Below, in pieces: positions 46,762-49,374 of a stretch of DNA of 57,480 bases. A program made the translations under genes and the position numbers. The notes below the pieces were generated by a model. That model had not been told where the DNA came from and ran no database searches. It worked only from the letters and a program-made list of their open reading frames with translations. How positions within the stretch are numbered: the first letter of the stretch is position 1; each line of letters starts with the position of its first letter. The DNA is from Thermomicrobiales bacterium (lineage in GTDB: Bacteria; Chloroflexota; Chloroflexia; Thermomicrobiales; UBA6265): contig JAHBVL010000015.1 of assembly GCA_019637585.1 (NCBI GenBank), forward strand, positions 1 through 57,480, in the 5' to 3' direction.

Positions 46762-47679
46762 ATGAGCGACAGCATGCCGACTCCCGTCATCCTCGATGTC
46801 GACACCGGAATCGACGATGCGCTGGCGATTGCGCTGGCGGTCCATTCGCCGGCGATCGACATCGTTGCCGCCACGACCGTTGCCGGAAACGTCTCGATCG
46901 ATCACACCACGCAGAACACACTCGATGTACTGGCTTTCCTTGGCGCCGGCGATGTGCCGGTCTACCGCGGCGCGAGCAGACCTCTTGCTCGGCCACTGAC
47001 GACCGCGCGAAATGTGCATGGATCGAATGGACTCGGAGGCTGCCTGCTCCCGACGGCCGTTCGGACGGAAGAAGCGGCCAAGGGTCCGGCGACGATCGTC
47101 CGGCTGGCCCAGGTACGGCCTGCCGAGCTGACGCTCATCTGCGTTGGGCCGCTCACAAACCTGGCCATCGCGCTCAGTGTCGAACCGGCGCTGCCGCGAT
47201 TGCTGAAAAAGGTCGTGATCATGGGTGGCGCCTTCCTGATCCAGGGCAACTACAATAAGGCCGCCGAGTTCAATTTCTATGTCGACCCTGAAGCCGCCGA
47301 ACAGGTCTTCTCGGCTCCTTTCGCGGATGTGACCGTTCTGGGGCTCGATGTCACCCATAACGCGCCGATTCCATTTACCTGGTGGCAAGACTCGGGTCGT
47401 GAGGCGACCCCCGAGCAGGCGCTGCTTCACCGCATCTTCGCGGAATCGTTTGCCACCCAACCGGACGGCCGCCACTATATGCACGATGCAATGGCGATTG
47501 CCGCGACCATCGATCCTTCGATCGTCGTGACCGAGCGCCATTCACTGGCGATAGGCGGGACGTTCGACGACCGGGGAGCTTCGCGGCTCGCGCAGCACAC
47601 GGCAGTGAACGTCGCTCTCGAGGTCGACACGCCGCGTTTTCTGCGCATGATGGCGGACCTGTTCAGCATCGATGGCTGA
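46762..47679 (+). CDS. Inosine-uridine preferring nucleoside hydrolase
   Basis: A 305-residue calcium-dependent N-ribohydrolase that releases bases from nucleosides. D-V-D-T-G-I-D-D-A-L-A-I at the N-terminus is the metal-binding signature, with G-G-A-F-L-I-Q-G-N and a C-terminal Y-M-H-D-A-M-A-I supplying the last Asp. ATG 46762 is used, with ATG 46774 an alternative. The 6-base gap suggests co-transcription with the ThDP enzyme. Confidence 0.92.
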   Translation: MSDSMPTPVILDVDTGIDDALAIALAVHSPAIDIVAATTVAGNVSIDHTTQNTLDVLAFLGAGDVPVYRGASRPLARPLTTARNVHGSNGLGGCLLPTAVRTEEAAKGPATIVRLAQVRPAELTLICVGPLTNLAIALSVEPALPRLLKKVVIMGGAFLIQGNYNKAAEFNFYVDPEAAEQVFSAPFADVTVLGLDVTHNAPIPFTWWQDSGREATPEQALLHRIFAESFATQPDGRHYMHDAMAIAATIDPSIVVTERHSLAIGGTFDDRGASRLAQHTAVNVALEVDTPRFLRMMADLFSIDG

Positions 47680-47697: not shown

Positions 47698-47727
47698 CTG
47701 ACAGGATCGGCGCTCCCGGTTTAGAAT
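47698..47727 (+). promoter_or_regulatory. Promoter of the DnaC-like gene
   Basis: CTGACA (47698-47703), 18-base spacer and TAGAAT (47722-47727). The 69-base leader has GC-rich pairs (GGGC/GCCC twice) before the GAGGAGG ribosome site. Confidence 0.5.
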
Positions 47728-47795
47728 GCTGCGCAATCCTGAACGGGCGAAAAGTGATCGAGCCCGGCAAAGCCCAGCTATTGAGGAGGTCAGCA

Positions 47796-48386
47796 ATGAC
47801 CGATTCGATCGTCGAACAGGCATCCATCCAGGATCGCGATCTTCTGCTCCGCCTCAGCCTGTATTTCGACTCATTCGACCAGAGAGTCCGGCAGGGCCAG
47901 GGTTGGTTCATTTTCAATGCCGATGGCGGCCGCGGCCGGCGTATTTCCAGCTTCATCGAACGGCAGTTGAACGAGCATCGTTCCGGCGTTCACTCCTTTG
48001 TGATTTCGTGGCGTGACTTCGCGCTCAGCGCGTATGTCAACGAAGTCGGTATCCCGCAGCTCGAACCGCAGGCGCGCCAGCCGGGAGCCACGCCCCGTCT
48101 ATCAAAAGAGGTCGCATTCGCCAGGATGGTGACCGATGACGTCTGGCTTCGGTGTTCGTCCGCGGAGCTGCTGATGCTGGTCGGGCTGAAACCGGCTCAC
48201 GCGCATGAAGTCGAGTTCCTCGATCGAGCGATCGAAGAGCGGTATCGTCAGCGGCTGGCGACGATTCTCGTGACGCCAGAGACACCCCAGGAACTGGAGG
48301 CCAATGTCGCCTCCGTCGATCCCACCCAGCAGATGTGGGATCGGCTGTTCACCAGAATGTACGAAACGAGTCTCGTCGCTCTGTAG
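47796..48386 (+). CDS. Unknown protein resembling a DnaC/IstB ATPase that lost its ATP-binding motifs
   Basis: A 196-residue protein. No family is recognised with certainty. The order of its strands resembles DnaC/IstB helicase loaders: Q-G-Q-G-W-F-I-F-N-A-D-G-G-R-G-R where Walker A would be, S-F-V-I-S-W-R-D-F as a second strand, L-L-M-L-V-G-L-K in the place of Walker B, then I-E-E-R-Y-R-Q-R-L-A-T-I-L-V-T-P-E-T-P-Q (cf. the R-Y..T-I..T-S-N sensor 1 region) and Q-M-W-D-R-L at the end. The GKT/S of Walker A and the DD of Walker B are missing, so ATP hydrolysis is unlikely. ATG 47796 has a strong GAGGAGG 6 bases upstream and its own promoter. It is convergent with the polyprenyl synthase gene. 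Confidence 0.6.
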   Translation: MTDSIVEQASIQDRDLLLRLSLYFDSFDQRVRQGQGWFIFNADGGRGRRISSFIERQLNEHRSGVHSFVISWRDFALSAYVNEVGIPQLEPQARQPGATPRLSKEVAFARMVTDDVWLRCSSAELLMLVGLKPAHAHEVEFLDRAIEERYRQRLATILVTPETPQELEANVASVDPTQQMWDRLFTRMYETSLVAL

Positions 48387-48390
48387 TGGG

Positions 48391-49374
48391 TCAGGCAGAC
48401 CGCTTGAGCGCCAGCTGGGCGAACTCTTCGAGTCCCTGACGGGCGTCATCATCGGGAACGACGTCGCCCAATGTCTCGATTGCGGCGTCGACGCGGATTT
48501 CTGCGTCACGCACTGCCAGATCGACCGCGCCGGAGCTCCGGATGTCATCGATCAGCGCGCCGATCTCCACTTCCGACGCCGAACCAGCGACAACGCTGGA
48601 CACCATATGCCGGGCCGATACCGGCGCATCCCGCAGGAAGTAGATAACCGGCAGGGTCAGGGTTCCCTGGCGGAGATCGTTGCCGGCTGGTTTGCCCAGG
48701 GTGGCGCTTTCGCCGGTCAGGTCGAGAACATCGTCGATGATCTGGAACGCGGTGCCAACCGCTCCCCCAAATGCCTGAAGCGCCGCGACTGTATGGTCGG
48801 GAGCCCGGCTGATGACGCCGCCCATTTCCGCGGCGCCGGCGAAGAGGGAGCCGGTTTTGCCATAGATCCGCAGCATGTACTGCTCGACCGACTGGTTGAG
48901 ATCGTTCGCTTCCAGCATTTCCATCAATTGCCCGTCGCAGATATCGCCGAGTGTGGAGGCGAAGATCGAGACGACGCGCGGAATGCCGGTGTCCGCAGCC
49001 AGCATGGCCGACTGGGCGAACAGGTAGTCGCCAATCAGAATGACCGAACCGGTATCGAGCTGGGAGTTGAGCGTCGGTTTGCCCCGCCGGAGCGCGGCGC
49101 GATCGACCGTGTCGTCGTGAACCAGCGAAGCGGTATGGAGGAGTTCCACGCCGGCGGCCGCGGTGATCAGTGTGTCGAATGTCTCCTCATAGGCGAATGC
49201 CCGTGCGGAGAGGAGGAGCAAAAGGGGACGGAGTCGTTTGCCGCCAGCGGCGATAATCTCGTCCAGAAGCGGGGAGATATCTGCATAGCGGACTTTTGCA
49301 GCTTCCGACAGCCGGTTGCTGACGCGGTCCATATCGGACTGCATCAGGTTGATGATATCGGTATGCTGCAGCAC
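48391..49374 (-). CDS. Polyprenyl diphosphate synthase
   Basis: A 327-residue trans-prenyltransferase that elongates isoprenoid chains for quinones or carriers. The two aspartate-rich sites D-D-T-V-D (first, in V-H-D-D-T-V-D) and D-D-V-L-D (second) bind Mg2+ and substrates; G-G-K-R-L-R-P at the N-terminus binds IPP. Chain length cannot be set confidently; the long type (C35-C50) is likely, which would serve menaquinone side-chain synthesis. ATG 49374 is used. Confidence 0.93.
   Translation of the reverse strand: MLQHTDIINLMQSDMDRVSNRLSEAAKVRYADISPLLDEIIAAGGKRLRPLLLLLSARAFAYEETFDTLITAAAGVELLHTASLVHDDTVDRAALRRGKPTLNSQLDTGSVILIGDYLFAQSAMLAADTGIPRVVSIFASTLGDICDGQLMEMLEANDLNQSVEQYMLRIYGKTGSLFAGAAEMGGVISRAPDHTVAALQAFGGAVGTAFQIIDDVLDLTGESATLGKPAGNDLRQGTLTLPVIYFLRDAPVSARHMVSSVVAGSASEVEIGALIDDIRSSGAVDLAVRDAEIRVDAAIETLGDVVPDDDARQGLEEFAQLALKRSA

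Follow-up and report, generated by a model that had tools for sequence, protein, structure and literature searches.

What might a small AAA+ protein do once the canonical residues of its own ATP site have gone? The question is raised by an open reading frame in the window, that is, the whole stretch of 57,480 nucleotides of Thermomicrobiales DNA analysed here. The original prediction had described its product as a degenerate DnaC/IstB-like protein, probably functional and perhaps a pseudo-ATPase partner of the replication or repair machinery. In AAA+ assemblies ATP is hydrolysed at subunit interfaces, where one side provides the pocket and the next subunit the arginine finger, and subunits without ATPase activity are well known elsewhere: eukaryotic origin and clamp-loader complexes depend on AAA+ subunits that have ceased to consume ATP. 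DnaC-clade AAA+ proteins are equally well known; what seems new is a member of the bacterial DnaC/DnaI branch that has lost its ATP site. Among the matches listed from the open literature, a body of text that leaves subscription papers mostly outside, we found no report of a DnaC paralogue with a lost ATP site or of this pseudo-ATPase family. A small, conserved bacterial example occurring in named strains would make the trans control of helicase-loader ATPases testable in a simple system.

The Gene and Its Family

The features discussed below are as follows.

47698..47727, + strand: promoter-like site CTGACA-18-TAGAAT (consensus match only, 10/12)
47784..47789, + strand: Shine-Dalgarno sequence AGGAGG, 6 nt 5' of the ATG
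47796..48386, + strand: 196-aa AAA+ protein of the DnaC/DnaI/IstB clade, predicted to be a pseudo-ATPase, ATG to TAG (alignment, AlphaFold2, structure and motif comparison)
47901..47945, + strand: residues 36-50 (GWFIFNADGGRGRRI), comprising beta1 and the former P-loop; Lys/Thr of Walker A gone, Asn41, Arg46, and Arg49 invariant
48009..48077, + strand: residues 72-94, with a conserved WRDF opening a long helix where DnaC has a shorter element (model and joint alignment)
48168..48209, + strand: beta3 and former Walker B loop, residues 125-138; DD gone, Gly130 in 44/48, Pro133 and Glu138 invariant
48273..48278, + strand: former sensor I, Thr160-Pro161; Asn in 0/48
48342..48344, + strand: Arg183, aligned with E. 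coli DnaC Arg216 (arginine coupler); Arg in 37/48
48354..48356, + strand: Arg187, aligned with E. coli DnaC Arg220 (arginine finger); Arg in 42/48

The translation contains the two stretches that had first drawn attention to the locus, RYRQRLATI (residues 149-157) and WDRL (residues 181-184), and the strong ribosome site ascribed to the gene is plainly there. The promoter of its own is backed in part: the promoter-like site lies inside the 116-bp gap that follows the stop of the upstream gene, and the scanned stretch holds two such sites against 0.2 expected, each being a match to consensus. A Shine-Dalgarno-like word of 4-5 letters precedes 41 of the 48 family members, a raw count with no chance control that uses script-guessed starts, two of the 48 not being start codons. 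Upstream, on the same (+) strand, lies a nucleoside hydrolase gene (IU_nuc_hydro, 46762-47679); downstream, a polyprenyl synthetase gene (polyprenyl_synt, 48391-49374) converges on the minus strand. Across the 48 loci, polyprenyl synthetase recurs in at least 29, nucleoside hydrolase in at least 26, and Lon in at least 25, all lower bounds, as neighbours were called by a crude longest-ORF rule. Lineages other than Thermomicrobiales show different neighbours, and no replication gene was found as a conserved neighbour across the 48 loci and the other-lineage neighbourhoods. In the window and at least 10 related contigs the sequence stops ~8-9 kb beyond the gene on its 3' side, which would be in keeping with a repeat that breaks the assembly downstream of the lon region.

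A whole-genome search of the own genome and its relatives recovered the gene as a single copy in 44 of 61 genomes, and in 25 of the 28 that are at least 90% complete and at most 5% contaminated. Among 400 sampled Chloroflexota genomes a strong match (E 5.3e-64 or better) occurs in 18, 11 of them in the own order Thermomicrobiales and seven in other classes. The collection of species genomes was scanned with two short patterns, the profile search covering Chloroflexota; 47 loci were confirmed out of 79 matched stretches, and the named ones belong to Thermomicrobiota or other Chloroflexota, as judged from record titles and the tree. Thermalbibacter longus CFH 74404 and Thermomicrobium sp. CFH 73360 are among the named strains that carry a member. 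No relatives were found among viral contigs, phages, or plasmids.

The frame is a real gene under purifying selection: in the four closest pairs, at a proportion of synonymous change of 0.096-0.39, dN/dS stays at 0.02-0.05, and the alignment of 48 members (A2) has 19 invariant columns, bearing out the expectation of a conserved, functional gene. The remaining 21 of the 25 listed pairs give dN/dS from 0.025 to 1.18 at larger synonymous divergence, the high values lying mostly between distant sequences. No internal stop occurs among the listed matches in relatives. Three high-quality genomes lack the gene (G003, G021, and G039). In G039 the contig stops at the locus, so that the absence may be an assembly gap. 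In G003 and G021, both of genus g4, the nucleoside hydrolase and polyprenyl synthetase genes adjoin, their matches lying ~260 bp and ~120 bp apart with nothing of the gene between them; the flanking genes likewise adjoin, without trace of it, in the less complete G029, the third of the four g4 genomes examined. This clean loss in three genomes shows that the gene is dispensable, and hence not essential, in genus g4. In the same genus (L195, L196, and L198) the gene for a TPP enzyme between glycerate kinase and nucleoside hydrolase is absent along with the pseudo-ATPase gene.

An AAA+ Core of the DnaC/DnaI/IstB Clade

AlphaFold2, run on A2, gave a model of high confidence (pLDDT 93.6, pTM 0.88) with five strands (residues 36-39, 67-71, 125-129, 155-159, and 192-195). 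The fold is that of an AAA+ protein, where a fold of any other kind would have overturned the original prediction, and its closest structural neighbours are those then proposed. In Foldseek against the PDB (best E 3.9e-5), all 17 chains at E<=1e-3 are DnaI, DnaC, IstB, a putative primosome component, or DnaA. VIA-align superposes the model on Aquifex DnaC (3ec2) with Z 16.3 over 157 residues at 2.4 A, with Z of 15-16 on other DnaC, DnaI, and IstB entries, ~14 on DnaA, 10.4-10.7 on entries titled Hda, and ~9-10 on ORC and p97-type AAA+ proteins. The member least like the window protein (L082, ~35% identity, without the arginine finger) was also modelled as an AAA+ core (pLDDT 92.6), and its six matches at E<=1e-3 are DnaC, DnaI, and IstB. 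Viral structures account for 24 matches at that threshold, the named ones being DnaC, "replicative helicase," "DNA replication protein," AAA-domain proteins, and one Gp225. On these models, it is near certain that the protein is an AAA+ core of the DnaC/DnaI/IstB/DnaA (initiator) clade.

A relation to DnaC-type loaders is also detectable in sequence, each profile method agreeing modestly. Single-sequence searches of Pfam and NCBIfam gave nothing useful, and 30 members against Pfam gave two chance matches and nothing else. Against NCBIfam, the 48 members matched PRK08116 (five members, best 1.7e-4), DnaC PRK07952 (five members, best 0.027), and IstB (one member), besides unrelated chance matches; no member matched the Hda model at E<=0.1. 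PHROG 50, "DnaC-like helicase loader," was matched at E<=0.1 by 28 of the 48, the window protein at 1.7e-4, and PHROG 3277, also DnaC-like, by 14 of the 48. A HMMER profile of the family ranked E. coli DnaC first in the PDB, with E 0.0044 from 30 rows and 2.1e-4 from 48 rows (0.14 and 0.0099, respectively, for the best single stretch). A second short stretch of E. coli DnaC, aligned to the P-loop region in that search, was discarded as out of order. Aligned by hhalign with 30 Thermomicrobiales DnaC sequences, the family scored 37.7; the maxima were 25.3 for 150 column shuffles, 12.8 for the reversed alignment, and 24.1 for 22 neighbour-gene families. The hhalign probabilities are 58-61%; the plain match, at 58%, covers residues 98-193 only, and we therefore take it as support rather than proof. 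With the match confined to the second half, kinship in the first half rests on fold and element order.

A Rebuilt ATP Site

Motifs were counted in a joint MAFFT L-INS-i alignment of the 48 members and the 30 DnaC sequences. The global and permissive modes of hhalign place the P-loop without a gap (Arg48 opposite the lysine, Lys in 1/48); as they misplace what follows it, that register was set aside and the first-half counts were taken from MAFFT. The lysine of Walker A (GxxGxGKT in the loaders) is found in none of the 48 members against 30/30 DnaC (one of 48 in the alternative gapless register), and the same holds for the first aspartate of Walker B (0/48 against 30/30), so that the absence of ATP-binding residues at both sites, first noticed in one sequence, extends to all relatives compared. 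At the second Walker B position glycine is found in 44 members and an acidic residue in two (one Asp, one Glu). The sensor I asparagine is likewise missing (0/48 against 30/30), with proline in its place in 46. Every member ends nine residues past the finger position, and sensor II is therefore absent. Only 35 residues precede beta1, against ~110 in the genome's own DnaC, so the N-terminal helicase-binding domain of DnaC is missing and direct binding to DnaB would not be expected. In E. coli DnaC, PMC8213410 assigns roles to K112, E170, N203, R216, R220, and R237, and reports that the ATPase is abolished by a change at any one of five canonical positions, namely those in Walker A, Walker B, sensor I, the arginine finger, and sensor II. 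The 196-residue protein probably cannot, we infer from its motifs, bind or hydrolyse ATP in the usual way.

Degenerate, the term originally applied, is apt for the loss of these residues and not for what has become of the site. Seven of the 19 invariant columns fall within residues 34-49, Asn41, Arg46, and Arg49 among them, a number that random placement reaches in any 16-residue stretch in only 1.1% of cases. This clustering in the former P-loop argues that the ATP site has been rebuilt and is under selection: on the alignment, it is replaced by other invariant residues rather than decayed.

The opposite face of the protein is better preserved. Arginine occupies the finger position in 42 of the 48 members, the window protein included, and the coupler position in 37, against 30/30 DnaC at both; the R-x3-R spacing equals that of DnaC R216/R220 and DnaA R281/R285. 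By alignment, Arg187 would thus be a candidate arginine finger. It is absent from six members (L067, L069, L071, L079, L081, and L082), a loss requiring at least three changes on well-supported branches of the tree, and can therefore not be the sole conserved function. By conservation it is 45th of the 196 columns, and much of the rebuilt pocket ranks higher. Near the N-terminus, a conserved QDxDLL (residues 12-17, 47829-47846) is modelled as a helix and bears what we take to be a weak likeness to clamp-binding motifs.

Possible Partners and Function

As the pocket side is lost and the finger side mostly kept, the protein could sit on the ATP face of a working neighbour. We tentatively favour, with somewhat less than even confidence, a stand-alone, non-catalytic module of the initiator clade that docks through its finger face on an ATP-bound AAA+ neighbour. 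The arginine-finger face would point at the ATP bound by an adjoining protein of the initiator clade; the helicase loader DnaC would be the likeliest partner and DnaA the next, and docking would either trigger hydrolysis by the partner or cap the end of its spiral. The former pocket (Asn41, Arg46, and Arg49, with Pro133 and Glu138) may have become a rigid interface or the site of a new ligand. Given the six members without the arginine, what the family has in common would be docking or capping, to which most lineages would add finger activity, or else binding of the new ligand. Such a protein would modulate helicase loading or initiation without carrying it out itself, in line with its clean loss in one genus. 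A more specific version, an ATP-blind regulator whose finger, lent to DnaC or DnaA, determines when these hydrolyse ATP, seems to us doubtful; if true, a dead AAA+ core in Thermomicrobiales would do what Hda does for DnaA in E. coli, or a delta-prime-like subunit in clamp loaders. The identity of the protein is near certain; a partnership with the replication machinery is conjectural in both partner and mechanism, and the gene neighbours do not point to replication.

Candidate partners are available. The own genome encodes one intact DnaC-like loader (254 aa, L085:1315-2079, contig C12) and one DnaA; PF00308 matches these two and no further DnaA-family protein, and DciA was not detected in that genome. 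The loader lies just downstream of a frame that looks, by eye, like the replicative helicase DnaB; a frame that may be DnaD-like lies between the two. DnaC is matched at E 1e-19 or better in 56 of the 61 genomes, in a few of them by a fragment; of the other five, three have a weak match of the kind that DnaA gives and two have none. PMC5109545 describes dna[CI] as domesticated in Chloroflexi.

The same data can be read otherwise. The rebuilt pocket might bind another ligand, a nucleic acid phosphate or a nucleotide signal, through Arg46 and Arg49, the AAA+ scaffold having been repurposed outside replication. The rebuilt P-loop is indeed the most conserved block, the finger is gone in six of the 48, and the Thermomicrobiales neighbours are metabolic (nucleoside hydrolase, TPP enzyme, and polyprenyl synthetase); yet the ligand is putative, and since other lineages have other genes beside it, the metabolic context could be a coincidence. 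We hold this unlikely, if credible. Somewhat harder to sustain is a decoy or poison subunit that inserts into assemblies of DnaC, phage DnaC, or IstB and blocks them, protecting against mobile elements or restraining re-initiation with the finger unused. Phage DnaC-like loaders and IstB do belong to the same clade, and members without the finger would be accommodated. In the own genome, however, only DnaC and DnaA pass the IstB_IS21 cut-off, so that no IS21 helper is visible as a target; the family's absence from the phages, plasmids, and viral contigs searched also weighs against a decoy, and the Thermomicrobiales locus is stable between housekeeping genes, unlike typical defence genes.

Two further readings carry much less weight. 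The protein might load the helicase without ATP, or be a DnaB-binding factor by itself; this would be in keeping with the DnaC clade and with the statement, in PMC8213410, that the helicase-binding domain of DnaC alone can load DnaB in vitro. The protein, however, corresponds to the AAA+ part and has no extra N-terminal region, and most relatives already have their own DnaC; we consider this reading improbable. That the gene is a functionless, drifting relic of a lost DnaC paralogue is scarcely tenable: the loss of all canonical ATP motifs and the clean loss in g4 would suit it, but the evidence of selection, with low dN/dS in the closest pairs, the invariant columns, and no internal stop in the listed matches, refutes it.

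Comparison with Known AAA+ Systems

With DnaC and DnaI (E. coli and Aquifex DnaC, S. aureus and Bacillus DnaI), the protein shares the AAA+ core fold, the order of elements, the R-x3-R at the coupler and finger positions, and a profile match in the second half. It differs from them in lacking Walker A, Walker B, sensor I, sensor II, and the N-terminal helicase-binding domain; moreover, beta2 and beta3 are separated by two long helices, and the finger helix is preceded by ~13-15 additional residues. IstB, the helper ATPase of IS21 transposition, falls in the same AAA+ sub-clade by fold (5bq5, 8q3w); unlike it, the 196-residue protein has no adjoining IstA, no sign of mobility, and no ATP motifs. 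Hda, the regulator of DnaA in RIDA, is a small stand-alone AAA+ protein of the initiator clade that regulates the ATPase of a partner. The fold match to it (Z 10.4-10.7) suggests distant kinship without a match to the Hda family; Hda keeps its nucleotide site, whereas here that site is gone. Clamp-loader subunits of the delta-prime/RFC5 type do not hydrolyse ATP, yet provide an arginine finger for the neighbour; they belong to another AAA+ clade, and their collar domain has no counterpart here. ORC2, ORC3, and Sir3, eukaryotic initiator-clade AAA+ subunits with winged-helix domains, have lost or altered ATP binding; ORC and Sir3 give weaker fold matches, and no relation in sequence was found.

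A different arrangement is seen elsewhere in the phylum. The search of 400 genomes also returned 12 weak matches, one in each of 12 genomes (L140-L151), which are open frames of 465-546 residues with two AAA+ domains, each domain having both Walker A and Walker B (12/12 proteins). An identification as DnaA was rejected in favour of tandem DnaC, following BLAST and reading of the sequences. Among the matches listed, at least 10 further genomes have a single open frame, of 446-574 residues, in which the DnaC domain is matched twice; in many more genomes it is matched twice or more, though not necessarily always in tandem. Exactly one match to the DnaC domain is present in 17 of the 18 genomes with the pseudo-ATPase; the other, G165, has none at E<=1e-8. 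Many genomes with a single DnaC lack the pseudo-ATPase, and the exclusion between it and tandem DnaC therefore runs one way; it is confounded by descent. The need for an asymmetric AAA+ pair may be the same in other Chloroflexota and be answered there by a DnaC in which two AAA+ domains are fused. In those tandem proteins for which a sensor I stretch could be located, that stretch often ends in a residue other than Asn.
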